Source: a virus
Virus record (IMG/VR): IMGVR_UViG_3300036944_000597
Coordinates: 1-31,731 of that record
Direction: 5' to 3' (one strand)
DNA: 31,731 bases
Part shown: in pieces, positions 2,918-31,731 of the stretch
Layout of the letters: the number at the start of each line of letters is the position of its first letter
Numbering within the stretch: position 1 is the stretch's first letter
The notes under the pieces: model-generated
What the model was told of the DNA's origin: nothing
What the model saw: the letters and a program-made list of their open reading frames with translations, nothing else
Database searches by the model: none
Translations under genes and position numbers: made by a program

Positions 2918-4160
2918 CTTCATACAGTTGTACACTGAGGTAGTAACACCTTGTACGGAAAGCCCTATCGTATACCACGACTGGGCAATCCTCACAGCTT
3001 TAGGGTCGTTGCTATCTCGTAACGTATGGCTGGAGTTTGGGGTGGAGAATATCTACCCTAACTTGTATACTATCCTTATAGGCCCGGCAGCTGGCCGTAA
3101 GTCTAGTGCAATTAACTTTGCGCGTAAGACTGTAGAGCTTGCAGGCTTCAAATCCTTTGCTAAGGAAAAGAGTTCCAAAGAAAAGTTCCTTGCTGATATG
3201 GAGAAGGGCTTCGGAGTTAAGCGCAGTTACGAGCCACTAGCTACTGACATTGAGGAACTCATGGAGGTAGAGTTTGCAGAAGAAGCTGTGTTAGCTGGGC
3301 CTGCAAGCAACGTGCTTATAACTGCAGGTGAGTTACTAGACTTCTTAGGTGCTGGGGACTTACCATTCATTACACTGCTTACTAACTTGTGGGACAACCT
3401 GCCTAAGTATGAGCAGCCTAAGTTAACTGGTAAAGATGTACTAGTAGTTAAGCCTACTGTTGGTATGTTAGGTGGTGCTACTAGCACATCATTCTCCAGT
3501 ATATTCCCGCCGGAAATCATCGGCAGTGGTATGTTAAGTCGTACCCTAATAGTGAAAGCAGACGGTAGGCGGCAAAGCTTAACCCTACCACCTGCACCAG
3601 ACTCTACTCTGTACGGTCAGCTTGTGGATTTGATTGTTGAGATGCGTAAGCTTAGTGGGCCAATCTCTTATACGCCTGAAGCTTACAAGCTTATTGATGA
3701 AATATACAAGACAGAGCATCCGCTTATGGACACACGCTTTGATACCTTCGTAGGTCGTAGGCATGTACAACTGCACAAGCTATGTTTAATCCTGACAGCC
3801 ACCGCGTTGGAAGATAAGATACAGCCTGAGACAGTAGTGTATGCCAACACTATCCTGCACGAAGTTGAGCTTAACATGCAGAATGCCTTAGGGGATTTTG
3901 GCTTGAGTGAGCTTAATGCCAAAGGTAACACTATCATAAGCATGCTCAATGCTAAGCCTTGTATGGCAGCCACGTTGTGGAAAGCATTAGCTGGGGATTT
4001 TAAAGATAAGAATGAATTCACAGCAGTACTCCACAAACTTAAGAGTGCTGGCCGTATCAACGCAGCAGCAAACAATTACTTGTACGTAGAACCTGCGAAG
4101 CCTTCAGTTAACTTCCCACACTACGTACCAAGCTTACTGAATTACAGAGGTGTAAAGTGA
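2901..4160 (+). CDS. DUF3987-type P-loop ATPase, putative replication helicase/primase-associated protein
   Basis: A 419-residue protein resembling the DUF3987 family of phage and plasmid replication proteins. The N-terminus (FIQLYTEVVTPCTESPIVYHDWAILTALGSLL) and the phosphate-binding loop GPAAGRKS at residues 61-68 are typical of that family, in which an Arg precedes the P-loop Lys. A hydrophobic strand ending in VLITAGELLDFLG could carry the second ATPase motif. The C-terminal part looks like a small winged-helix region (AKPCMAATLWKAL...VLHKLKSAGRINAAANNYLYV). Expected role: ATP-dependent unwinding or loading at the replication fork beside the polymerase two genes upstream. The ATG at 2901 lies within the 3' end of the preceding gene. 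The exact enzymatic activity is inferred from family and neighbourhood only. Confidence 0.7.
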   Translation: MAKVPDFIQLYTEVVTPCTESPIVYHDWAILTALGSLLSRNVWLEFGVENIYPNLYTILIGPAAGRKSSAINFARKTVELAGFKSFAKEKSSKEKFLADMEKGFGVKRSYEPLATDIEELMEVEFAEEAVLAGPASNVLITAGELLDFLGAGDLPFITLLTNLWDNLPKYEQPKLTGKDVLVVKPTVGMLGGATSTSFSSIFPPEIIGSGMLSRTLIVKADGRRQSLTLPPAPDSTLYGQLVDLIVEMRKLSGPISYTPEAYKLIDEIYKTEHPLMDTRFDTFVGRRHVQLHKLCLILTATALEDKIQPETVVYANTILHEVELNMQNALGDFGLSELNAKGNTIISMLNAKPCMAATLWKALAGDFKDKNEFTAVLHKLKSAGRINAAANNYLYVEPAKPSVNFPHYVPSLLNYRGVK

Positions 4161-6203: not shown

Positions 6204-7558
6204 TATTTAGTCCTCATAAAGTACATTTGCTGGGTGACGCCGTTATGTAGTAACACGCCGCCTAATCTTGCTGAGTACTGGAGCTTGCTATACGTTCCAG
6301 TACTGGCTCTAGCTGTTGGCATTGCACCGGTTCCTGTAATAACGCTAACAGTCCATGGCTGAGATAAGTCTGCTGGATTGCTAGGTGTTAACGCTGCAAA
6401 CTTATTAGTATCAACTGCATTATCCCACAGCAACAACTTATCACCTATCCAGGCTGCCCCTACTGCCCCACCTAAGAATGATGGGAAGTTTTCACATGCG
6501 GGGTAAGTAATAGCATTAGTTGCGGGGTTTATAATTGCTAAACCTCGCTTAGCTAAATAGTCTGTAGTTACTTGAGCGCAGGCAAATATGATTCTAGCAG
6601 GCTCAGGCGCGTAAACAGCTGTGCTATATGAGCCAAATATGTTCGCCCAATAACCTAAGTTAGTAAAGGTCTTGGTGTTTAAATCGACTACTACAGGGCG
6701 GATTGTACCTTGACCGCTAATAAACATTTTATTACTTACAGGGTCTATAGCAGCACCACCATACCCTGTGTTGTTTGTACCGTCTGTACTATAGTCACAG
6801 ACTAAAGTAGCTTCACCAGTTATAGGGTCTACTTCGTAAACCTTCCTTATTAAGCCAACGTCAGGAAAGGAAGCAACTAGCGCGGCAACATATAACTTAC
6901 CATTATGCGCAAAGTTATAACTGTATGCGTGCGTAGAGCGTAACCGTCCGTCCGAATACAACCCAGTGGCGCTTTGACCATCATTAAGATTAATCACATT
7001 GCCGATAGCCCCAGATGGTTTCCTAGCCATCTTCCATTGTATAGTGTTTGCAAATACATCAACCATAAACGGTGGGTTACCTGCATAGTCTTGGTGCCCA
7101 CCTTGTAGAATGTACCACCATTTACCAGTAGTATCATCATACGCAGCGCCCCCATAACCATTTACAACAGCAGCAAAGCCAGTACTGCCCCGCCAAGGCG
7201 ATGCGTTAGGGTGATTTGGGTTGGTTAAGGGGTCATTTTCAGGGTCTATACTGGACAGTGGCCCAACGTGTGGTATAGCTACTATCTCATACAAACCTAA
7301 CCCTTGCTGCCAAGTAGGTAGCCCCCCAACTGGTGGAGCGCTTATACCAGCGTAAATACTATTGCCACTTGTAGCATACCCCACATCAAACAAGTTACCT
7401 ACTGGGGCTGCCATGCCTGCATACACTGCATTACTTGCTGTATTGTAATAAGCGTCAAAGGGGTTGATAGGTATCCCCCCTCCCCCGCCTGTGGAAGCTT
7501 CCCCCCTCAGGCTTCTTGTTAGCCCACGTTTAAGTGGGACTTTAAGATTGAATTTCAT
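6203..7558 (-). CDS. Putative receptor-binding/tail spike protein with beta-propeller-like body
   Basis: A 451-residue protein. It begins with a basic segment (MKFNLKVPLKRGLTRSLRG), a glycine linker (TGGGGG), then two short repeats of the form N..YAG..AP..G (SNAVYAGMAAPVG and GNSIYAGISAPPVG). The body has repeating blocks typical of beta-propellers: YDDTTGKWWYILQGG, GKLYVAALVASF, KVYEVDPITGEATLV, GGAAIDPVSNKMFISG, VVDLNTKTFTNLG, GLAIINPATNAITYP and GDKLLLWDN. Propeller bodies are common in exported or surface-binding proteins, so host-receptor binding or glycan recognition fits the position at the end of the tail-fibre block. No catalytic motif recognised. The Shine-Dalgarno sequence GGAG lies six bases before the ATG. 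Confidence 0.6.
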   Translation of the reverse strand: MKFNLKVPLKRGLTRSLRGEASTGGGGGIPINPFDAYYNTASNAVYAGMAAPVGNLFDVGYATSGNSIYAGISAPPVGGLPTWQQGLGLYEIVAIPHVGPLSSIDPENDPLTNPNHPNASPWRGSTGFAAVVNGYGGAAYDDTTGKWWYILQGGHQDYAGNPPFMVDVFANTIQWKMARKPSGAIGNVINLNDGQSATGLYSDGRLRSTHAYSYNFAHNGKLYVAALVASFPDVGLIRKVYEVDPITGEATLVCDYSTDGTNNTGYGGAAIDPVSNKMFISGQGTIRPVVVDLNTKTFTNLGYWANIFGSYSTAVYAPEPARIIFACAQVTTDYLAKRGLAIINPATNAITYPACENFPSFLGGAVGAAWIGDKLLLWDNAVDTNKFAALTPSNPADLSQPWTVSVITGTGAMPTARASTGTYSKLQYSARLGGVLLHNGVTQQMYFMRTK

Positions 7559-7879: not shown

Positions 7880-8527
7880 TTAGATTATTTTAGGACCGAT
7901 GTACGTACCCACAATAATCAAAGTACTAGATTGAGTCCAGAAAACTTTAACATTCCAAACACCATTATCCCCTAAGCCTCTTGTCATCAAGTCATACTCA
8001 ATGTGCTGCCCAGCTGGATTAGAAGTTATGGTGTGATTACCTATGCTATAGTTAGATGCGTCAGCTCCCCAGATGATTATATTGGAGTACGATGATTCAG
8101 TTCTGTTACCAGCTGTGTATACTCTTGTGATGCCTGTACCTACGGATGATGGGCTGAGCATACCGGCTACATTGTTTATTAGTAAGTTACCGCCTGCCGC
8201 CCCAGCTTGTGACCAGCGGAATTCAAGACCGCCAAGTATAAGACTCTTAGCATTGGCTGCTGTGATAGTGACCTCAATAGACCCTACCTCCATACCAGTG
8301 CCTGCAATTGGGCTAGTAACTGGAGGCTCCACCCAAGTACCTGCACCTGACAACAATCGACCTTGTTGCCCTATCGCAGGTGCGGGGACAATACCAACTT
8401 TACCAGCCACTGAAGCAGTAGCTCCAACCATTGGAGCTGTTAGCTTGTAAAGCTCGTCGGAGTTGCTGTTAGCTTTCTCCATTTCAACGCCCCAAGTAGA
8501 AGGCTCAGTGTGTATAGCTCTTGCCAT
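7880..8527 (-). CDS. Tail fibre protein
   Basis: A 215-residue protein with the motif VGKVGIVPAPAIGQQGRLLSGAGTW at about residues 43-67, a pattern common in tail fibres just before the receptor-binding tip (G.VPAP..G....L.G.G.W). After a PPVTSPIAGTG linker the C-terminal ~130 residues are beta-rich (IEVTITAANAKSLILGGLEFRW, NIIIWGADASNYSIGNHTITS, VWNVKVFWTQSSTLIIVGTYIG) and probably form the trimeric tip. The N-terminus is short, so it probably docks on another fibre or baseplate protein. An AAGGAG ribosome site lies inside the end of the 39-residue ORF just upstream, suggesting translational coupling. Confidence 0.75.
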   Translation of the reverse strand: MARAIHTEPSTWGVEMEKANSNSDELYKLTAPMVGATASVAGKVGIVPAPAIGQQGRLLSGAGTWVEPPVTSPIAGTGMEVGSIEVTITAANAKSLILGGLEFRWSQAGAAGGNLLINNVAGMLSPSSVGTGITRVYTAGNRTESSYSNIIIWGADASNYSIGNHTITSNPAGQHIEYDLMTRGLGDNGVWNVKVFWTQSSTLIIVGTYIGPKII

Positions 8528-8531
8528 AGTA

Positions 8532-8651
8532 TTAGCTCCTTAGTTTAGTAGGTGAAGTTAGTACAGTAGACGCGCGCAAAGACGAAACAGTTCCAGCAAT
8601 AAGGGGCGTCCGTAATTCCCTGATTAATGGAACAATTAAACTAGTCTTCAT
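8532..8651 (-). CDS. 39-residue ORF between leader element A and the tail fibre gene
   Basis: A short reading frame, MKTSLIVPLIRELRTPLI... ending TKLRS. It has a GGAG Shine-Dalgarno sequence (complement of 8658-8661) six bases before its ATG, and its stop lies four bases before the fibre ATG, with the fibre's ribosome site embedded in its last codons. The N-terminus is hydrophobic with basic residues, and the remainder is Ser/Thr-rich. The position directly after the structured leader element and the coupling to the fibre gene suggest either a leader peptide or a small virion protein. No family recognised. Confidence 0.6.
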   Translation of the reverse strand: MKTSLIVPLIRELRTPLIAGTVSSLRASTVLTSPTKLRS

Positions 8652-8679: not shown

Positions 8680-8818
8680 GGTGTATTTCGTGGGACAACA
8701 GCTGTGATAGTATAACCTTATTGACGGCAGTCAAGGGCCGCTCCTTCGTCGCTTCCTCCCTTGACTTGCCTTACCATAAGGTTATCCTTATCACAAGTTG
8801 TCCTGCCGAAAATACACC
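8680..8818 (-). promoter_or_regulatory. Structured leader element, copy A (before tail-fibre block)
   Basis: An imperfect hairpin of 139 nt. Sense-strand 5' end GGTGTATTTTCGGC pairs with GCACGAAATACACC-like sequence at the 3' end (bulged U, then a C/A mismatch). The next helices are AGGACAAC with GTTGTCCC and TTGTGATA with TATCACAG, then AATAACCTTAT-type pairing with ATAAGGTTAT (8711-8721 with 8776-8785), then AAGTCAAGGG with CCCTTGACT. The apical loop on the sense strand starts AGGAAGCGA. It begins 31 nt after the stop of the 1850-residue protein and ends 19 nt before the GGAG of the 39-residue ORF. Same family as copies B and C; it shares their blocks but the intervening helices have different, still complementary, sequences. 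It lacks a U-run, so it is not an ordinary terminator. Confidence 0.85.
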
Positions 8819-8848
8819 TTGGCAGGTGCGCAGTAGGTTAGCCCCTTA

Positions 8849-11800
8849 CTACTCTGGAACATTCCATGGATTGATGTACTGTGTAACATCTGCACCCATT
8901 ACCTGCTGCATGTATCTGCCAGTTACGTTGTCGTTCTTTTCGTGCATGTTGTAAATTTGACTTTGAGTTGCAGACTGGAATAGGTTCTGGCTCCAAGTAT
9001 CGTAAGTGTTAATATCACCACCACGATTTACAAACTCCTGCATAGTGTTGTTGTACTGCTCACCATCCCAGTTGTTTGCATTTATGTTAGCCTTCACTAC
9101 TGAGCCTAGGCTCTTTAAGTCCTCCTGTCTGGCAGCTTCAAACTTAACTGCGCGGTAGTATGTAGCTACTGCAACAGCCTCGTCCATGCCCCTAGCACCT
9201 GCCACCCTTGCAGCCATTTGGAAGAAGTCCAAGTCGCCAGTGTTAAGTAAGGTACTACCTTGGCTAGTGATACGCTCACCTGCCATCAACTGACCTATAC
9301 CTTGTAGTGGCCGGTTCACACCATTAGTTGCCAAAGCCTGTGTGAAAGTATCCCATACAGGAACTCCACCAGCTAGGTTATTAGCAGCCTGCCCCATTGA
9401 ACTGAAGAACTTAGTAGCCATACTAACAAGAGGTACTTCATCCAAACTAGAGGGGATAATAATAGGACTTCTAGGGTTCAAGTTCCCACGGCTAAAGAAG
9501 TCTACACCATCACCTACCATTGGACGGGTAAAGTTGGAAGCGATACCATATAGCATCCAGTCAGCAACCTTACCAAAGCCTGCTGGCATTTCCCCACCTA
9601 AGGCATTGTTGATTCCAGTGTAGAAGTCACCTTCGTAATTGGAACGCTCCGCTACATGGTTGTTCAATAGCTCGAAGCCTGGAGTTGATTGCATGCCAAA
9701 GATACCAGTCTGTAAACCCATCATAGCTGCTGCACGACTAGGCTTCTCACCTAAGTGGCGCATAAGCTGCTGGATTAAGTTGAACTGATAAGTCTGGAAC
9801 AATCCCACTGCCTGACCTGCCCAACCTTGGAACATAGCTGGACGTTGTGCGTAGTGGTAGTTACCTGTCACCCGGTTAACGTAGGTTTGGATTGCCATGT
9901 CAGCAACCTTACCTGTTACACCGGCAGCAGTAAGTACTTGGTTAGCCATGTCCGCAGCCATGAAGCGTACATAATCTTCCGTGGAATCGCCCCACTTAGC
10001 TAAGTAGTCTATTGTCTTGCCCATGGTTTCAGTAAGCGCACCAGCCGCCCCAGCTGCATCCGTCACCAGCTTCTGGCCTACAAGCGCAGCACTATCCACA
10101 GCGTTCATGTACAGTTGCGCTCGCTCACCTATGATACCAAGCTGCATGTACTTCTCACGAAGCTCAGGCTTCTTGAACCAGTTGACAGTGGCCTGACTCA
10201 TTAGTTTACCATTGGACATCTCACTAGCCAGTACTTTACCTGCTTTGTCAGTAGCTTCCACAGTCAGGCTCTTGCCCAATGCTTGACGACGCAATTCAGG
10301 AATGGCATCAATCAAGTGCTTAATCTCAGGGTTAGCTAAGATAGGCAAACTGATAGCGTTGATGATAGGCTGCACATAGTCCAAGCGCAAGGTAAAGGTA
10401 GCACCTATCCAGTTAAGCTTAGGTACAACAGATGCCAAGATTTGAGAGTTAACCTTCTGACTGCGTACAAGATAATCTTGCATCTCGTCATTGTAAGGTT
10501 GAGGCAGCCCATACTTCTCTGCCAATTTATTCATCTCTTGGTAGTTACCTTCCGCAGCACCGGCAGCTTTTACACCAGCAGCACGTAACGGGGCAGTTAC
10601 TATTGTGTTCCACACGTCACTAAACAGTTCATCCGCTGCACGCTGTACGTTACGCCATGTTTTGAACCTGTTGTCATTAGGCATGTTGAGCATAGTAGCC
10701 ATACGGTCTTGTGCAATTGAAGCTTCCTTGTTCTTTGTCCCCAGATCACCTGCACTATTCAAGCGCATATCTTCCAGAGTTTGCAGCAATTGGAACTCTT
10801 CATCGTAGTACTGCTTCTGCAGGTTAGTAAGCACACCGCGAGCTTGACGCTTGTAACTTTGCAACGTAGACCATGCAATCTGAATGTTAGGGTCAGGCAT
10901 AATGTCTGCTGCCTTACCAGTATTCAACTTGCTGTGATCCATGTAGAAGCTATCAATGTTTAAGCCATCTTCATAATCCTGCAGTAGCTGCTTGTGGCGC
11001 TCGGCGTTGGCATTAGGAGTTATGGTTTCAAAGTCGTTACCATACTTACTGCGTAACAAGCTTAGCTTCTCTTCCACAACTTCAGCGTTAGGGCCGCCGA
11101 TAATCATAAACTCGCGGTCACCCATAAGGCCAGGCTTAGTAGGTTTGACAAAGTTAATTACCTTGTACAAGTCACGGTCGATAGTGCCAGGATAGAATTG
11201 ATTGGCATTCCAATTGGCTGACTTACCACGTAAGCTTGCACTAAGCTGTGCACCTTTAACTGTGTGCTGGTTAACCTCACGCAACGCTCGCCAGTAGTTA
11301 GCTACAGAAGCGTTCTCCACAGTAGCTAGTTGATGCTTAATCATCTCATCCAATTTGGTAAGCAGTCGGTTATCAACTTTGGTAGCCATTGCAAAGTCTT
11401 CCAAGGCTGCAAGCAAATCAGAGCTTATAGTCTTGAGAGCTCCAGCCTTGGCCACGTGCGCGGTGAGCTGGTCAAGTACAGGGTTAAGTGCCTTGGCTTT
11501 CTCAGCAGCTAACTTGAGTACGTCAGGGTCATTGGCTTCACCAGCGCTTTGTGCAATACGGTTAAACCAAACCTTGACTGCGCCACCCTGCGCATCCATA
11601 CCAGTAAACTTCCACTCTGGCGGCACTTCTTCCATCTTGTACTGACGGAACTTAGAAGTACTTACAGCTAACTCTGCAACCGCAGCAGGGTCACGAGCTA
11701 TTGAATGGACTGCAGGCTCCACACCTTCGGAAATACGCTTATCACTGAAGGCACCTAAGATACCTAAGGAACGGCCACTGGCATTGGCATGTTCCACTTC

Positions 11801-14409: not shown

Positions 14410-16338
14410 CTATCTTATAGAGTTACCTGATAAGTATCCAGGTTTGAATATGCTCTGAGACATTACACGTTTGGAGCGCTCTGTTACCAAAGCTTGGCGA
14501 TAGTACACTTCCAAGTCAGCCGCACTTTCAAGGTTTAAGCTACTCTTATCACTAAGTTTGGTAGGCTTAACAAGTGATTGCTTCCAGGTTGGGAAGGTAT
14601 CTTGAGTAGTCTTGTGCAAACGGAGTTGCTTGTACGCTGTGGCTTGGTATTTAGCAGCGACCTTAATAGAGCTAAAAGCTTTAGCATTATCCATTAAATC
14701 CGCGTCTGCCATAGTACCTACAAACACCGCTGCATTGGAGCCTAATACATCTTGCACCGATTGATTAGGCTTAGGTGCAATGTCTAACTTAATGGCATCA
14801 GCCTTACCAGATTGAACCAGTTCAACTATTTCAGGGTCAGCACCTGCTGCCAGCATCCGTTCCCTAATAGCTAAAGCATTCACCATTGTATCTGCATTAT
14901 CCAATGGAGTAAGGCCAGAAGCTTTGTTAAGGTCATCTTGAGCAAGTCTAATCTTGTCAGCATATTCCTTATCCAGCTCAGTTAGTACCTTACTATTGAG
15001 CACAGGTTTACCATCACGCCCTGTAGCAGTTAAAGCATACTTAGCTTCAATAGCTGCCACCGCTTCCTGCCCTGATGCAGTTTTCACACTCTGCATCGGG
15101 TTGGCCGCAAAAAAGGCATCCTTCTCTCGTTGGATTTTAGTAGCTAACAACTCCTGAGCTACTTTAACTGTAGTTCTGTCAGCTTCAGTAGTAGGTACAC
15201 GAGACACAGCCTTACTAACTGCTTCACTGACGGCAGTCTGGTCTTTGGTCATGGTGTAATCACGAGACAGTAAGTACTCGCCTAAGATAGGATTATCTAA
15301 CTTGGTTTCGTCCTGCAAAGTAACAGCAGTATTAAAGGTTACAATCTTATCTTCAGGAATACCGCGGGCTTCTTGATAAGCTTTGAAGGACAATTCAATG
15401 GTAGTACGCGACGCCTCGTTACGGTCATAGGCTTCCTTAGATGCCTTAGCCTGCAACTTAGCAGTATCCAATTGAACCCGCTCCATCTCAGCACGTACCA
15501 TTGTATTGCTAAGCTCGTTGGTCTTGCTCATAGCGTTAAGACGGTCATACGCCGCAGCGGAAATGTGCTGGTCGAATCCTAAAGCACTATTCATTGCCAT
15601 GAATTCTTCCCTGTTGAGTTCGTTACGCGCCTTACTTTGATTGACTAAAGCATTAGCCTGCTCGACCATCATAGTAGCTCGTGCCGTTTGCTCGGCGTTA
15701 GCATTGCCAGCTATAGCCTCATTAGCCATTAGAGAAGATTGCAATGCCTGGGTTGCATTAATTTCCTGCTGCTGGTTAAACTGCATCATCTGGGCGCTCA
15801 TTTCTAACTCTTCTTGAATATACCCAGCACTCAGAGCGCCCTTCAACCAGCCTAGTACATTCCCTGAATCCATCTGCGCTTGAGCTTCCAGCATCTCATT
15901 CTGGTCTCTTTGATGCTGCTCAAAGATTTTACGCTTAGTTTCTTTGTACTCCTCAGAGCCATAAGTCTCAGAATATTCGCGCAAGCCCCCAGCGTTAGCA
16001 GCTGCAGCAGCCTTAGCAGTTTCAAACTTAATACGTGCAAGTTCAATGGCGTTGTTAGTCCCAGTCTTAATCGACTGCTTGCCTTGAACGTTATTGGCTT
16101 TGGTATCTGCAAGCAAGACTTCAGCAGCTTGGCCTTTGGCTTTAGCACTGGCCTCGTAATTAGCTGAAGCATCTAAAGCACCTTGCACAATATTCTGCCC
16201 AGTAGCCTGTGGAATGTAAGGATTAGTCTTACTGGAGGTTAGTGTGGATTTAGTTTCCACAGTTTTGTTTTTGGTGGAGGTTAAAGGAGTAGGTTGGCCA
16301 ACGCCGCCCATACCCATTAAAAAATTAAGTACACTCAT
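14410..16338 (-). CDS. Internal virion/DNA-ejection protein, coiled-coil rich
   Basis: A 642-residue protein lying between two other ejection-type genes. After a short N-terminus with a Gly/Met stretch (FLMGMGGVGQ) and a Thr/Ser/Lys-rich linker, most of the sequence is Ala-, Gln- and Glu-rich and predicted helical (IELARIKFETAKAAAAANAGG, ETKRKIFEQHQRDQNEMLEAQAQM, EELEMSAQMMQFNQQQEINATQAL). It has no catalytic motif that I can see. This composition is typical of podovirus internal core proteins ejected with the DNA. A GGAG lies six bases before the ATG. The gap to the 1850-residue gene is nine bases, so the two are co-translated. Confidence 0.65.
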   Translation of the reverse strand: MSVLNFLMGMGGVGQPTPLTSTKNKTVETKSTLTSSKTNPYIPQATGQNIVQGALDASANYEASAKAKGQAAEVLLADTKANNVQGKQSIKTGTNNAIELARIKFETAKAAAAANAGGLREYSETYGSEEYKETKRKIFEQHQRDQNEMLEAQAQMDSGNVLGWLKGALSAGYIQEELEMSAQMMQFNQQQEINATQALQSSLMANEAIAGNANAEQTARATMMVEQANALVNQSKARNELNREEFMAMNSALGFDQHISAAAYDRLNAMSKTNELSNTMVRAEMERVQLDTAKLQAKASKEAYDRNEASRTTIELSFKAYQEARGIPEDKIVTFNTAVTLQDETKLDNPILGEYLLSRDYTMTKDQTAVSEAVSKAVSRVPTTEADRTTVKVAQELLATKIQREKDAFFAANPMQSVKTASGQEAVAAIEAKYALTATGRDGKPVLNSKVLTELDKEYADKIRLAQDDLNKASGLTPLDNADTMVNALAIRERMLAAGADPEIVELVQSGKADAIKLDIAPKPNQSVQDVLGSNAAVFVGTMADADLMDNAKAFSSIKVAAKYQATAYKQLRLHKTTQDTFPTWKQSLVKPTKLSDKSSLNLESAADLEVYYRQALVTERSKRVMSQSIFKPGYLSGNSIR

Positions 16339-16349
16339 GTCTTACTCCA

Positions 16350-17564
16350 TTACATTGTAAGAGGCTTCTGAACAGGCGCTACCCCAATAGTTTGCTGAGG
16401 CTGTAGCCCACCCTGTAACTGAGCTAACATCTCAGGTGTTAACCCTAAAGCTGCGAGCGCTTGAGCGTCAGGGCTTTGAACGGCCTGCCCATTAGTAGGA
16501 GCTGCCGCCACGCCGGGTACAAGGCTCTGGATATTAACTGGTGCAGTAGCTTGCACTGGTGCAGTAGCCTGTGCCGGTGCAGCTGCAGGAGCTGGAGCAG
16601 GTTGTGCCATAGCAGCTCCAGTGTTCGGAGCTTGTACTGCTGGATTCATACTAGGCAAGGCTACATTAGCCAGCGGGCCGGTAGTTACGGCAGGAACACC
16701 AATACCTTGACCTAGTTGGCTCATGATATTAGTACCAGTTCCGATACCTGCACTCTTATCCTTGGCAAAGTCCTGAAAGGTATCAGTAGTTGCCTTACTT
16801 TGTCCAGCAGTCGAAGTAGAATTAGACTCTGTAGCCTTCTCCTGCGCTGTCCGGTCTTGAGTAGTTGCAGTGTTACTAGTGTTAGTACCTGTGTTGGCAG
16901 TAGTTCCTGTAACATTGGAGTTCTCAGTGTTGGTAGTAGCAGCCTTACCAGTAGTAGCCTCTTGCCCGCCTTGCAATGCGCCCATAAGTTGAGCTAAGCT
17001 TTGAGATTGCTGAGCTTGACTTGCCTGCTTAGCCATTACACCAGCTTCGGCAGCGCGGGTTGCAAGGTCGTTCTGTAATAGGGCTGTAGTGGTATCACCA
17101 AACGTACCGCTGCGGTTGCCTACACCTGCAATAGCTCCAGCACCAGAACGTAGAACCTTCTGCATTGCGGCGTCCATGGCACCCTCACCCTTGCCAAACT
17201 CACCACTTAGCTGCATAATATTTTGTAATACAGCACTATTAGCGCCAGCGTCACCACGAACAGTGGTCTGAGTCTGGTCAGTTGCGGATTGCCCCGCCGT
17301 CTGTTGTTGTTGCTGCATTTGCTGAAGTTGGTTAGTAACGTCAGTTGTATTGGAAGTACCAAAAACCTTTTCCATAAGGTTCTTGTCCATTTGACTGAGG
17401 GATTGTTGTAGCTGTTGAAAGAATTCATCACTCACCCCTGTAGTACGTTGGTCTTGTGCCGCAGCTTCTGCAGCTGTTTTAGCATTTAAACGGTCTACTC
17501 TAAGTTCAGCCCCTTTACTAAGTAACTCAAAAGGGTTAGCCTTTGAAAAAATTTTATCGAACAT
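16350..17564 (-). CDS. Ejection-type virion protein, Gln/Thr/Ala-rich with low-complexity regions
   Basis: A 404-residue protein, first gene after leader element B. It begins with a helical segment (MFDKIFSKANPFELLSKGAELRVDRLNAKTAAEAAAQ), then a Gln-rich stretch (QQLQQSLSQMDKNL, QLQQMQQQQQ), a Gly-rich region (LRSGAGAIAGVGNRSG), a Thr/Asn/Ser-rich linker and a Pro/Ala segment with tandem PVQATA repeats. Such disordered, non-catalytic proteins are typical of DNA-ejection proteins that are packed in the head and unfolded to leave through the tail. A GAGG lies five bases before the ATG, and the A/C-rich linker of the leader element lies just upstream. Assignment rests on composition and its place beside the other two ejection-type genes. 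Confidence 0.6.
   Translation of the reverse strand: MFDKIFSKANPFELLSKGAELRVDRLNAKTAAEAAAQDQRTTGVSDEFFQQLQQSLSQMDKNLMEKVFGTSNTTDVTNQLQQMQQQQQTAGQSATDQTQTTVRGDAGANSAVLQNIMQLSGEFGKGEGAMDAAMQKVLRSGAGAIAGVGNRSGTFGDTTTALLQNDLATRAAEAGVMAKQASQAQQSQSLAQLMGALQGGQEATTGKAATTNTENSNVTGTTANTGTNTSNTATTQDRTAQEKATESNSTSTAGQSKATTDTFQDFAKDKSAGIGTGTNIMSQLGQGIGVPAVTTGPLANVALPSMNPAVQAPNTGAAMAQPAPAPAAAPAQATAPVQATAPVNIQSLVPGVAAAPTNGQAVQSPDAQALAALGLTPEMLAQLQGGLQPQQTIGVAPVQKPLTM
16537..16572 (-). repeat. 18-bp tandem repeat coding for a PVQATA unit
   Basis: Two 18-bp units (ACTGGTGCAGTAGCTTGC and ACTGGTGCAGTAGCCTGT on the + strand) differ at two positions and are followed by a diverged partial third. They lie inside the 404-residue ejection-type protein and encode its Ala/Pro/Gln repeat. 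Tandem units in frame can expand or contract without breaking the protein. Confidence 0.75.
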
Positions 17565-17593
17565 AATAACCTCGATGGTTGTAGTTGGGTAGT

Positions 17594-17724
17594 GTGTATT
17601 TCGGTGTGGTTGATTCCTGCGACAGTATAACCTTACTCTCCTCCCGCAAGGGTCGCTTCGCTTCCTCCCTTGCAGTCGTCAGGTAAGGTTATTCTTGGTC
17701 GCATCAACCACGCCGAAAATACAC
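17594..17724 (-). promoter_or_regulatory. Structured leader element, copy B (before ejection-protein block)
   Basis: A 131-nt imperfect hairpin. The sense-strand 5' arm GTGTATTTTCGGCGTGGTTGAT pairs with ATCAACCACACCGAAATACAC with one bulged U and one C/A mismatch. Then come a GCGAC/GTCGC helix, the conserved ATAACCTTAC with GTAAGGTTAT helix, and GCAAGGG with CCCTTGC closing a purine-rich loop that begins AGGAAGCGA. It starts 20 nt after the endolysin stop and ends 20 nt before GAGG of the 404-residue protein. A small 15-nt hairpin (17722-17736; CACC with GGTG) overlaps its first bases. It is the clearest copy for seeing that the outer helix differs from copy C yet remains paired. Confidence 0.87.
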
Positions 17725-17744
17725 CTGTGGCCGGTGGCGTTACC

Positions 17745-18122
17745 TTAGTAAGGGAATAAGCCTTTAGGTAAGTTAGGGTCACAGTCCATGTGGATGAAGC
17801 CATGCTTGTAGTTGATGCCTATGCGCCAGAAGCCATGCTTGATAGCAGAGGCCAACAGTGCGTAGCCTTGCTCCATGCTATTGTACTTAATATCTAGTGC
17901 ATAGCCGCGTAGGTGAGCGCTATTAGCTCCGCCGCCTACAGCAGCGTTGTGAGCTTCACAGCGAAACGCACTGTTAATCTTCAGTGGAAAGCCTACTTCC
18001 TCACGTATGGCATACAACTTAGTTAAGGTTGTCATACGCATGTCTGCAAAGCCTTTACCGCACTGCCCGCATTGGCAAGCAAACTCACTGTCTTGAAACT
18101 TTGGGTGTCTAGGGTTAGCCAT
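17745..18122 (-). CDS. Endolysin, M15-type D-Ala-D-Ala carboxypeptidase/L-Ala-D-Glu-like zinc peptidase
   Basis: A 125-residue peptidoglycan peptidase of the Peptidase_M15_3 type. The N-terminus has the family's FACQCGQCG cysteine motif at residues 14-22. Then come SAFRC...HN..VGG, SAHLRGYALDI and FIHMD. Zinc ligands are expected at His70, Asp77 and His111. It has no signal peptide or separate wall-binding domain, so it acts as a globular lysin needing a holin. The full-length size matches other phage enzymes of this type. GGAG lies eight bases before the ATG; the ATG overlaps the preceding gene's stop. It is the last gene before leader element B, placing lysis in the same late transcript as head and tail proteins. 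The exact bond cut cannot be told from sequence. Confidence 0.88.
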   Translation of the reverse strand: MANPRHPKFQDSEFACQCGQCGKGFADMRMTTLTKLYAIREEVGFPLKINSAFRCEAHNAAVGGGANSAHLRGYALDIKYNSMEQGYALLASAIKHGFWRIGINYKHGFIHMDCDPNLPKGLFPY

Positions 18123-28172: not shown

Positions 28173-30080
28173 TTACACCGGAGTTTGAGCAGGCGCTTGA
28201 CCTGGCTGCGGGTTATTAGGGTCAGGAGGCGTGTTGCCTGCTGAGGGAGCTGGAGCTGTAAGTTTGAACTGGCTAATCTTAGCTCCCATCAACTCGTTAA
28301 TATACACATACAAGCCAGCTACATCAAACTGCGCTGCAAGCATTGGGTTGGCCAGGAGTTGTGTATATGAATTGATTAGTGGGTCTAAGCTTGCAATTGA
28401 TTCTTTCTTGGCTAGCCCGTCTGCCAGCTTGAAGTTAATAACCTTAGTGCTTAAGAGCAGTGGGTTAACTTCTACTGAATCACCTAAAGAAGTTACAATT
28501 TCATCAGCATCTTGGTACTGAGCAATGTTGGCGCGGATAATTGTTTTAATCGGCTCCATCACAACGTTCTCAAACATAAGGCCATAAGTCCTTAAGTCAG
28601 AGTCCGCGTTATTCATTATCTCGTTGAACTCAGATGCAGTCTTGTTACCCTTTTGGAATTGACCCATCTGCGCACGGTTGAGTCGTGTAATCTCTGAAGC
28701 TGATTGCTTAAGGAACCCAATCTCTTGGTGGAAGTTAGCAGCCATTTGGTCAGTAAAAGGTAATTGCTTAACTGACTGCAATGGATCCTTGTTAAGCATG
28801 TTAGGCTTAACTGCAATCGGCGCACTAGGATGCCGCAAGCTTGCAACGTCAACAGTCCCCTCAATGTAGGCATACTTATTGCCAGTTGCCTGAGCTAAGC
28901 TACGTAAGCGTGCGTCATACAACTTAGTGGCCAAGTTCTGCATTGGGATTACAAGCTGTGCATCAGACTTAACTTGTTCGCCAATACCATCTTCTTTAAT
29001 CATCGGAGTGATGATGTTAAAGTAGTTGTGCACGTTGTTCATACGCTCACAAGCTACTAAGGTATCACCTACTTTAATGAGGCGTAAGATGTGAACTGTA
29101 TCAGGTTGCCCAAGCTCTGTAATACCTAACATAGAAGGAATGACACGAGTGTACATAACTGTCCACAAGTATTCATCCATTGGGTTAGCTTTGTACTTGC
29201 TGCCATCAGTTACAGACTGACCGAAGAACATTTCCCAGTTGCCACCCCAAGCCGTATCGTTATCGCCAGCTTGTGGAGCTTCAGGTACAATGCACGGGCG
29301 CATATAGCTGTTTAAGCTTCCAGGGGTTGAAGCCTTAAAGCAATCATGTTGGTTCATAACAGCTTTGCCTTGGGCCTTCATAACCTTAATACGGCGCACC
29401 ATTTCAACCATACTGATTTTTTCAGTATAGCCTACGAACTCACCATACATATGAACTTCAGCGGGTTCTACAAGTTCGTCATGGAATACGTTGTAAATAT
29501 CCAGACGCTTAATCTTGTTACCTGATGTAGGAACTTCGCTTACAGATTTGGAGGAACGTGAACCTGCATTGCTTGTTTGCAGCTGCTGTACTAGGCGTGT
29601 ATCCCAATCAACTTCAATAGCGCACTTGTTGTACTTGGCTAAGTCGCCAAAAGCAATTGTTAAGTTACGCGCCCATGCGTAATCTTTACTATCGCGCTCA
29701 TTGACTGCGTCAACTTGCATGGCAATGCCCATGTCATCCTTAGATGGTGGAACAGCTTCGAAGATTGAGGGACGTGCAAGAAACAAGTCAACAAGGAAAC
29801 CTTTCACAGTATCTACTGCTTGAGTTACCAGACTAACTTCAGTGTCGTCGAAGTAGTCGTAACGCTGGTCACGATTAACACCTAAGTTACGGCGTGTATC
29901 TGATTCCAGTTGGATAGCCTTGTCAATCTTTTCGTAAATGTGGCGACGTTGCGCAAAGTTAAATCGTTGGATGCAATTGTTCATGTAAGTCACAGCTGCA
30001 AGTTGTGAGTCCCTGCCGAGGGCTAAGGTATTACCAACAACTTTGTTGTGACTCTTTGCAATCCGTTTTGGTTGTTTCAT
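28173..30080 (-). CDS. Portal protein
   Basis: A 635-residue protein, in the expected order after the terminase large subunit and before scaffold and capsid. It starts after leader element C with AGGAG about nine bases before the ATG. Features include FNFAQRRHIYEKIDKAI, YDYFDDTEVSLVTQAVDTVKGFLVDLFLARPSIFEAVPPS, LTIAFGDLAKYNKCAIEVDWDTR, VMYTRVIPSMLGITELGQPDTVHILRLIKVGD and IPMQNLATKLYDARLRSLAQATGNKYAYI. These are typical of podovirus portals, which form the dodecameric DNA channel. The C-terminus is Pro/Gln/Ala-rich (GNTPPDPNNPQPGQAPAQTPV), as in several head-tail connectors. Portal residues cannot be checked structurally here. Confidence 0.85.
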   Translation of the reverse strand: MKQPKRIAKSHNKVVGNTLALGRDSQLAAVTYMNNCIQRFNFAQRRHIYEKIDKAIQLESDTRRNLGVNRDQRYDYFDDTEVSLVTQAVDTVKGFLVDLFLARPSIFEAVPPSKDDMGIAMQVDAVNERDSKDYAWARNLTIAFGDLAKYNKCAIEVDWDTRLVQQLQTSNAGSRSSKSVSEVPTSGNKIKRLDIYNVFHDELVEPAEVHMYGEFVGYTEKISMVEMVRRIKVMKAQGKAVMNQHDCFKASTPGSLNSYMRPCIVPEAPQAGDNDTAWGGNWEMFFGQSVTDGSKYKANPMDEYLWTVMYTRVIPSMLGITELGQPDTVHILRLIKVGDTLVACERMNNVHNYFNIITPMIKEDGIGEQVKSDAQLVIPMQNLATKLYDARLRSLAQATGNKYAYIEGTVDVASLRHPSAPIAVKPNMLNKDPLQSVKQLPFTDQMAANFHQEIGFLKQSASEITRLNRAQMGQFQKGNKTASEFNEIMNNADSDLRTYGLMFENVVMEPIKTIIRANIAQYQDADEIVTSLGDSVEVNPLLLSTKVINFKLADGLAKKESIASLDPLINSYTQLLANPMLAAQFDVAGLYVYINELMGAKISQFKLTAPAPSAGNTPPDPNNPQPGQAPAQTPV

Positions 30081-30117
30081 TCAATAGCACTCCTGCTGAT
30101 TGGTTAGTAGGTGTTGT

Positions 30118-30260
30118 GTGTATTTCGGTGTAACTGCCCTCCTGCAATTTATAACCTTATCCTCACGTGTCAAGGGCCGTTCGCTAGCGCTCACTGTTCC
30201 CCCTTGACACTGCTCCTATAAGGTTAGTAAATATGCAGGTCAGTTACGCCGAAAATACAC
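30118..30260 (-). promoter_or_regulatory. Structured leader element, copy C (before portal/head block)
   Basis: A 143-nt imperfect hairpin. Sense-strand GTGTATTTTCGGCGTAACTG pairs with CAGTTACACCGAAATACAC, with the same bulged U and C/A mismatch as copy B. Then come CCTGCA with TGCAGG, TAACCTTATA with TATAAGGTTA, and GTGTCAAGGG with CCCTTGACAC. The loop is longer (24 nt) than in B. It starts 20 nt after the terminase stop and ends 23 nt before AGGAG of the portal gene, with an A/C-rich linker between. A small hairpin ACCCT-loop-AGGGT (30259-30271) overlaps its first bases. There is no U-run on either side. Confidence 0.87.
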
Positions 30261-30280
30261 CCTGCGAGGGTCGCGCACCG

Positions 30281-31731
30281 TTAGTTGCTTCTGAAGTCAT
30301 AGGTTCTAGCATCGAAGTCCCTTCCAGGTTTATATGTTCCATAAGTCTCCCGATACACTTGCTTCACTATAGTTAAGTCTCGCATGGTGTGGAAGATTCG
30401 AATAGCATACTCGCCAACGTCCAAGATATCATCCACGTTATCATCTTCCAGAGGGTTGAATGCAATAGCTTCCGTTTGGTAGGCTGCAAACACCTGTGGA
30501 ACCATCCGCAAGACATTAGCGTATACTGCTCCAAAGCTTTCGTATATCCATGCAGTTTTGGACTTCTGGCTGCCACCTTGGCGCGAGATTTCCACAAGGT
30601 TAATGGATTCCGGCGCCAGTTGGAACTGCTCCATGAAGAAGGCAAACCACTGTAAGAGTGTAGCCTGATAGGCATAAGATTCGGCGAAGATTGCACTAGC
30701 ATTCTCCTCCATAGCCCACTGCAATACTGCAGGCACCAATTGAGGTGCAGCCATCTGCATTACCCGCATCTCCTTCCATACTACCCCACCTTCGTCATAG
30801 ATTTCAAATAAGCCTACAACTTGGTTGTCAGAAGTCTTCTTACCTAAGGACGGGTCAATCACAATGAACCTTCCAATAGGTAGCATGGGCATAACCGGAA
30901 CCCAAGGTGCTGCTCTGGTAATGTCGAAGAACATACCTTCTGTAGCCCTAGGGTCGTTCTGTACTTCTGCATACCATACGTGAGCTTGCCCCAATCTGGT
31001 GTCAGAAGCTAAGTCCTCTAAAAGCGCCTCGGGAGGATGCACCTCAGGCCAGATGCTAGAACCATCTGCAAGGAAGGCTCCTGTAACCCATGATACCCAG
31101 TCCGCAGCCTTTTGTAAGTTGCGCAGGATACAGGAGTATACCTTATCCACGGCGCCCTTAGCACTAATCTCCAGGTCGGGGTACATGTTACCTACGTACA
31201 TTACGTGGCAACGCTTATAGTCCCGCGCCTTGAGCAAGGTACCAAGGAACCAAGCTAGTAGCTCCTTAGATTGTTCCACTGACTTAGCTTGGTCACGGCT
31301 CTGCGCGTCATCAAGTATGATAACTTGTGGCCGTTGGTTATCAATGTTAGTACCCCGTACAGCGCTACCTGCGCCAATAGGCTTTAGGATTATGCCGCGG
31401 CCTTGGAAGTGGAACTTACGAACCTCAGCATTATCCTTATCTATACCTAACCTATAGTCTCCAAAGAGGTTCTTAATGTTTTCGGATGCGAGCATGCCCA
31501 TAACGTCATCAATGATGGCGCGGGCTAAGCTTGCTGTGTTACCTACCACAAGTATATACTTAATGTCCGTGAATAGAATAATGTACACAATGAGGAGCTT
31601 AAGCATGTGGGTCTTGGCGTGGCCACGAGGGATACCAATCGCATGCTTAGTTAGGCGCTTAGGGTTCAGAAGCACAGAGGTTATCATGACCCAGATGGAA
31701 TGGTGCATGGGGGAGAGCGGCGAGGTGTAGA
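30281..31731 (-). CDS. Terminase large subunit, 5'-truncated by window edge
   Basis: The DNA-packaging motor. The frame is open to the window end (YTSPLSP precedes the first Met), so the N-terminus lies outside; about 482 residues are visible. The ATPase Walker A is PRGHAKT, about 39 visible residues in, and Walker B is VIILDDAQ, preceding the usual catalytic acidic position, with Asp-Ala rather than Asp-Glu. The nuclease domain has FIVIDPSLGKKTSDNQVVGLFEI, AIFAESYAY and EDDNVDDILDVGEYA, supplying the expected acidic residues. It lies first in the late order visible here; its stop is followed at 20 nt by leader element C. The small subunit is not in the window. Confidence 0.92.
   Translation of the reverse strand, partial: YTSPLSPMHHSIWVMITSVLLNPKRLTKHAIGIPRGHAKTHMLKLLIVYIILFTDIKYILVVGNTASLARAIIDDVMGMLASENIKNLFGDYRLGIDKDNAEVRKFHFQGRGIILKPIGAGSAVRGTNIDNQRPQVIILDDAQSRDQAKSVEQSKELLAWFLGTLLKARDYKRCHVMYVGNMYPDLEISAKGAVDKVYSCILRNLQKAADWVSWVTGAFLADGSSIWPEVHPPEALLEDLASDTRLGQAHVWYAEVQNDPRATEGMFFDITRAAPWVPVMPMLPIGRFIVIDPSLGKKTSDNQVVGLFEIYDEGGVVWKEMRVMQMAAPQLVPAVLQWAMEENASAIFAESYAYQATLLQWFAFFMEQFQLAPESINLVEISRQGGSQKSKTAWIYESFGAVYANVLRMVPQVFAAYQTEAIAFNPLEDDNVDDILDVGEYAIRIFHTMRDLTIVKQVYRETYGTYKPGRDFDARTYDFRSN

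Follow-up and report, generated by a model that had tools for sequence, protein, structure and literature searches.

Long covarying palindromic rods with a common tip in podophage genomes and in bacterial chromosomes

T7 and related podophages carry RNase III processing sites between their genes, and hairpins can also act as promoters, as in folded single-strand promoters and the hairpin promoters of the N4 virion RNA polymerase. Here we describe three long hairpins, termed rods A, B and C (133–145 nt), in a 31.7 kb window, which is the whole stretch of viral DNA that was analyzed. Like the RNase III sites of the T7 group, they are structured, intercistronic elements of co-transcribed phage blocks, with several per genome and a position upstream of ribosome sites. 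However, the present rods are much longer (about 45–55 bp), share a conserved GTCAAGGG tip and come from phages that do not belong to the T7 group, and cutting here is putative. With N4-type hairpin promoters they share the hairpin form, GNA-type loops and a -35-like sequence in the stem, but the position of the -10 is inconsistent. An N4 virion RNA polymerase promoter hairpin was rejected as a candidate, given that Pfam and PDB sequence searches found no RNA polymerase domain in the giant virion protein (1850 aa), in a 31.7 kb record that may be incomplete.

REP and REPIN sequences with their RAYT (PMC3116915) resemble the rods in being dispersed, extragenic and palindromic, in reaching a high copy number in some genomes while being absent from others, and in forming a long stable hairpin. 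They differ in that the conserved part of the present rods includes the tip, that hypervariable paired blocks are found in the arms and that slots in phage genomes are occupied recurrently; a RAYT or a GTAG foot would be hypothetical for the present rods. A REPIN-like, high-copy extragenic palindrome is a true description for some bacterial genomes; the window has three copies only. The rods pair and covary, have a common tip and sit repeatedly in portal-adjacent slots. The mark of the class, as read from the sequences, appears to be the tip GTCAAGGG...CCCTTGAC, often around small hairpins. Our best explanation, which we hold tentatively and at somewhat less than an even chance, is a patchy class of long palindromic elements that in these phages would be intercistronic RNA hairpins segmenting or stabilizing polycistronic mRNA.

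Three rods between late genes of the window

The window phage is distantly related to Aeromonas phage P5 and the Fredfastierviridae. Its nearest named relatives are P5 (47–51% identity in the capsid and about 33% in the portal), Polaromonas phage Tiera, EBPR podovirus 3 and the Pseudomonas phage PaMx41/PaP2 group, which is Fredfastierviridae according to its record. The late genes (terminase, portal, capsid, tail genes, an endolysin-like peptidase and the 1850-aa virion protein) lie on the minus strand, which is also the sense strand of the rods. Element A (8680–8818, minus strand, 139 nt) is located 3' of the 1850-aa virion protein gene (stop at 8849), element B (17593–17725, minus strand, 133 nt) leads from the endolysin/peptidase gene (stop at 17745) to a 404-aa gene (start at 17564), and element C (30117–30261, minus strand, 145 nt) leads from the terminase large subunit gene (stop at 30281) to the portal gene (start at 30080). 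These bounds were refined by a covariance model (R1), and the scores of 134 (A), 138 (B) and 139 bits (C) are those of the very sequences that built the model. The distance from the upstream stop to the rod is 29 (A), 19 (B) and 19 nt (C), and from the rod to the next start codon 29 (A), 28 (B) and 36 nt (C), with the ribosome site staying outside the rod. For A, the next gene is a 39-aa open reading frame starting at approximately 8650 with GGAG upstream, rather than a 215-aa open reading frame at 8527; the 39-aa frame spans 8530–8650 of the window on the minus strand.

The minimum free energies are -67.5 (A), -69.5 (B) and -67.9 kcal/mol (C), with z-scores against dinucleotide shuffles of -7.2, -9.1 and -8.4 (-9.2 in a separate run for C), and 0 of 200 shuffles are as stable as A, B or C. 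Common to the three are the ends, an inner helix (TAACCTTA/TAAGGTTA) and a CAAGGG/CCCTTG tip, and two other helices vary. The outer variable helix reads GGACAAC/GTTGTCC in A, GTGGTTG/CAACCAC in B and GTAACTG/CAGTTAC in C, each with seven of seven pairs formed and, with the pairs read directly, double changes between copies at six of the seven pair positions. The second variable helix is also fully paired (TGTGATA/TATCACA, TGCGAC/GTCGCA and CCTGCA/TGCAGG). Both the folding z-scores and these pair counts bear out the starting observation of an earlier note on this DNA, namely three copies at these places with variable but paired helices. The rod ends are GGTGTATTTTCGG and CGAAATACAC, with copy A one C short at the 3' end; the shared C/A mismatch of the earlier note is better called a bulge, formed by one additional U in the 5' end. 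The tip is an exact GTCAAGGG/CCCTTGAC in A and C, and CAAGGG/CCCTTG in B.

Element C, on the minus strand throughout, may serve to locate the parts. Its conserved 5' end strand GGTGTATTTTCGGC (30248–30261), the same in A, B and C, has the conserved 3' end strand CCGAAATACAC (30118–30128) as its partner. The variable outer helix, unlike those of A and B yet paired, joins GTAACTG (30241–30247) to CAGTTAC (30130–30136), and the conserved inner helix consists of TAACCTTA (30219–30226) and TAAGGTTA (30152–30159). In the tip helix, the 5' strand TGTCAAGGG (30201–30209) is the core common to P5, other phages and chromosomal palindromes, and the 3' strand CCCTTGACA (30168–30176) contains a TTGACA that doubles as a -35-like hexamer.

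The rods are not intrinsic terminators, because there is no U-tract 3' of the rod; no terminator was called on the rods themselves, and the region of the ribosome site comes next. The earlier note did not recognize the element, and in Rfam 15 no family was found at or above the gathering threshold for the window, P5, PaMx41 and two chromosomal loci. Literature searches, one of them with the core sequence, did not turn up any such element. The structure is real and, as far as these Rfam and literature searches reach, undescribed.

Rods in related phages and their strand

In P5, rods were detected via a scan of folding energy that is independent of the tip sequence. As a general means of finding rods, nested-pair counts gave too much noise, and energy outliers took their place. 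The strongest structures of P5 are in intergenic gaps, with rods near 5, 12, 18, 30, 34, 38 and 45 kb and a shorter one at 25.2 kb. These eight rods precede early plus-strand genes and late minus-strand genes alike, and the proposal in the earlier note of an element specific to late mRNAs does not hold for them. Their arms are unrelated, and most have GTCAAGGG...CCCTTGAC, or a close variant of it, as the tip, inside which two small hairpins plus a short linker on the 3' side are frequent. The energy scan found no rods in Tiera.

Among 80 capsid relatives in viral contigs, rods are sporadic and recur in a few slots. A rod between terminase and portal, with differing arm sequences, is found in the window, G003 (L102/L224), L103, L158 and L010, as the earlier note had expected for equivalent places in related phages. 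Of these contigs, L010 was found separately from the 80 capsid relatives, G003 has the rod at the contig end and the portal at the contig start, and L158 has one additional gene separating terminase and rod. The slot of element B, between the peptidase and the 404-aa gene, is also occupied in L103 (rod at approximately 15320–15475), and a slot between the portal and a small gene-scaffold-capsid block is occupied in L168, L173, L177, L180, L181 and P5. Most of the remaining relatives have a terminase-portal gap of only up to about 50 nt, without a rod. Since rods are missing from most relatives and from Tiera, they are dispensable in the lineage.

PaMx41 (L188, NC_055711) has two strong unannotated rods (7080–7240 and 42440–42600), which are intergenic like the present ones, and one of them lies upstream of the small gene-scaffold-capsid block, just past the portal-adjacent gene. 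However, these are without the GTCAAGGG tip and are missed by the covariance model of A, B and C, which therefore does not match every long hairpin. The PaMx41 rod at 42440–42600 folds better on the strand opposite its flanking genes. A search with a covariance model of the three copies had been proposed in the earlier note, and the model of A, B and C alone does match one rod of G006 (E 3e-6), two rods of G003 (1e-5 and 4e-5) and a chromosomal rod in Hyphomicrobiaceae (2e-5), all E-values being rough. G006 represents a second podovirus lineage (portal phrog_12082); of its four rods, half have the full tip and half have GTCAA/TTGA(C). A BLAST search with one G006 tip gave no convincing named phage. 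The second rod of G003 (L223, 18822–18964, minus strand) is placed between minus-strand open reading frames, far from the terminase-portal slot, and has the tip GTGTCAACAC..GTGTTGATAC. A rod with the GTCAAGGG tip is also seen at 3589–3638 of L055, a contig bearing a Zot-like filamentous phage gene. Viral contigs gave no match to a pattern made from the three sets of rod ends, and scanning with the portal protein likewise brought up no close relative. Perfect palindromes with a NotI site in EBPR podovirus 3 (L006, 9395–9446 and 29047–29103) were rejected as probable library or assembly artefacts.

The tip is also enriched as a pattern. In viral contigs, TGTCAAGGG-N15-45-CCCTTGACA occurs in 95 stretches compared with 24 for the matched control TGTGAAGGG-N-CCCTTCACA, an approximately four-fold difference in raw counts that TTGACA enrichment through promoters may raise. 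The flank test is less sensitive to that effect, and complementary flanks outside the tip (z < -3) are present in 28 of 98 pattern matches compared with 1 of 29 controls. A control pattern containing CTAG gave 6 stretches and was considered unfair, hence the TGTGAAGGG control. Some pattern matches were not rods or were otherwise explained, among them L227 and L019, the latter a perfect divergent promoter pair.

Both strands of A, B and C fold nearly alike, and their strand is therefore taken from gene direction and not from folding. On the sense strand of the phage lineage, G-U pairs are more numerous than A-C mismatches (92 vs 51, p = 0.0008; the lineage subset was picked after a wider set gave 114:82, p = 0.027), and of 36 oriented rods, 28 have the sense strand as the better-folding one, although a C-to-T bias on the coding strand could add to both effects. 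The window copies alone are neutral (5:5). The earlier note favored the sense strand, and this is supported across the lineage but not by the window copies. Taken together, the sense-strand G-U excess and the better sense-strand folding favor an RNA role in phages at moderate confidence, with neutral window copies and with chromosomal copies that have no orientation bias and to which we assign neither form.

RNA would most likely be the active form, with action through processing or stability. A nearly rod-like palindrome in the intercistronic gap of a polycistronic transcription unit would, once transcribed, constitute a cis-acting double-stranded RNA site in the phage mRNA. The rod would separate neighboring cistrons and halt 3'-to-5' decay of the upstream part, and the downstream gene (the portal, or the scaffold/capsid block in relatives) would gain a stable 5' end of its own, probably made by RNase III-type cutting within the rod. 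This RNA-processing reading draws its support from rods that are far more stable than shuffles, leave the ribosome site free and recur in slots with unrelated arms, from the recurrence of the tip in P5 rods that were found by energy, and from the sense-strand G-U excess. Against it, an RNase III site is not recognizable by sequence, the rods are dispensable in the lineage, the window copies are neutral as to strand, the arms are enriched in promoter-like hexamers, and chromosomal palindromes have no orientation bias and often lie between convergent genes, which an mRNA-leader role leaves unexplained. If the rods merely segment phage mRNA, they could still help to account for how portal and capsid levels may be set by podophages that do not evidently encode an RNA polymerase.

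Palindromes in bacterial chromosomes

A scan of bacterial genomes gave at least 120 stretches, and complementary flanks (z < -3) are present in 74 of the 120 matches listed, which are a biased sample with several per genome. These chromosomal copies bring in another explanation, in which the rods are a dispersed mobile or selfish palindromic DNA element, broadly of the REPIN or MITE kind, that forms a single-stranded or cruciform hairpin and has settled in the intercistronic gaps of phages. The arms would then remain complementary via a replicated or recognized hairpin or via template-switch correction. We regard this as possible but on balance improbable. Copy numbers speak for it, with 60 copies in G016 (Hyphomicrobiales), 26 in G017, 22 in G026, 18 in G027 (Lachnospiraceae) and 10 in G022 (Thermoanaerobacter wiegelii), and zero copies of the reversed pattern in these five genomes. 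So does the distribution, given that 30 relatives of G016 have no copies and 1 of 75 other genomes in the order of G027 has a copy, a single one, in both cases with the proviso that a diverged tip would escape the pattern. The phage rods are likewise patchy, with eight in P5 and none found in Tiera. In T. wiegelii, the ten palindromes (L360–L369) are near-identical, have the same tip and lie within a longer repeat, apparently just 3' of a candidate transposase-like gene; near-identical copies are seen only in this genome among the chromosomal sets.

The intergenic gaps that the chromosomal copies occupy are of every orientation, which also fits a mobile element. By flanking gene calls, which in chromosomes are simple open reading frames, 23 copies in G016 are between co-directional, 11 between convergent and 7 between divergent genes, and the polarity of the tip agrees with the co-directional genes in 12 cases and disagrees in 11. 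The earlier note had proposed a 5' leader, a specificity that the chromosomal palindromes do not share; a leader RNA is one possible role within a wider class.

The arms point in the same direction. Across 31 aligned copies in G016 (30 distinct), the tip is invariant and an outer block is conserved again. Six tip-adjacent arm pairs are hypervariable yet 98–100% complementary, with up to four pair types each, double changes in 10–21 rows, and G-U intermediates that are almost absent in general and absent from these six pairs in the 30 distinct rows. In the alignment, 97.8% of cells are paired, compared with 33–48% with the partner slid, and covariation is 0.259 compared with 0.062 in shuffles, for copies that are related and not independent and with shuffle counts that are not probabilities. 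Compensatory change by itself is no proof of selection at the RNA level, because hypervariable chromosomal arms free of G-U also fit palindrome correction at the DNA level. The earlier note took such changes to indicate selection for base pairing; the covariation is real, and the step to RNA does not follow from it.

Against a mobile element, the phage rods recur in a few portal-adjacent slots across long divergence, a dedicated transposase, RAYT or other, would be hypothetical, and no target-site duplication was seen by eye around the chromosomal copies inspected, those of G017. In these G017 copies (L380–L393), hypervariable and almost perfectly complementary 8-bp blocks adjoin the tip, between conserved blocks.

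Phage rods and most chromosomal rods share the tip and architecture only, which is a further point against a mobile element, and common descent may be a mere possibility. The common tip suggests a specific recognizing factor in phages, and perhaps also in bacteria. A wider reading, possible in our view though rather doubtful, is a cross-phylum class that would be common to phages and bacteria, recognized by one conserved factor and spread or kept via the hairpin form. Its arms would be hypervariable yet perfectly paired and its tip near-invariant, composed of GTCAAGGG, a small hairpin or a pair of them, in many cases a short linker on the 3' side, and CCCTTGAC. Should one factor recognize the tip both in phages and in distant bacteria, this would represent a conserved nucleic-acid recognition event not yet described.

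Promoter-like sites and short stems

The rods could also contain a sigma-70 type promoter for the next gene, made up of the TTGACA of the tip helix in the 3' arm and a -10-like hexamer 14–19 nt on, with the hairpin as by-product or modulator; this rival is live but seems unlikely. By consensus match only, such a site, with hexamers at the 16–18 nt spacing expected for sigma-70, is found in C (30146–30173, minus strand; TTGACA-N16-TAAATT, 10/12) towards the portal and in A (8707–8734, minus strand; TTGACT-N16-TACTAT, 9/12) towards the next gene, but it is missing in B. Across the phage rods, -10-like hexamers are enriched 14–19 nt past TTGACN. In 17 of them, the best -10-like score 15–19 nt after TTGACN is 3.99 bits, compared with -0.49 for shuffled and 1.02 for column-permuted controls, and no shuffle in either control reaches the observed score. 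The P5 rod at 34 kb has TTTACA-N15-TATAAT. However, in A, B, C and one P5 rod the best -10-like hexamer is at a spacing of 14, too short for sigma-70, and the promoter-like signal does not differ significantly between sense and antisense arms (p = 0.15). The -10 is absent from GC-rich members of the class and from the G016 copies, and a promoter leaves approximately 45 covarying paired bases unexplained.

Each rod has at its 5' base a short stem whose last letters, GGTG or GGGT, are followed immediately by TATTTT (8807–8833, 17714–17742 and 30250–30276, minus strand), and this stem and the rod base are mutually exclusive. It invites a translational or attenuation leader, in which a host or phage protein would bind the rod or tip and control the next gene, possibly via the short stem (CACC..GGTG before TATTTT) competing with the rod base. 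A terminator-like call for C is in line with such a leader, but A and B have no call of this kind, the short stem is clearly above shuffles in A only and no better than shuffles in B and C, and the ribosome site lies outside the rod; we consider this explanation quite improbable.

That the paired changes come solely from template-switch correction of quasi-palindromes in replication, with no selection on the hairpin, would fit the perfectly complementary hypervariable arms of the chromosomal copies, almost without intermediates, but is highly improbable given that selection on the element is indicated by the conservation of tip and end blocks next to variable ones, by the recurrent slots and by the sense-strand G-U excess in phages. 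The hypervariable, perfectly paired arm blocks nevertheless provide a clean natural test of long-palindrome evolution. Outside the rods, the lowest folding energy of the window is at 16456–16650 on the plus strand, within a coding region.
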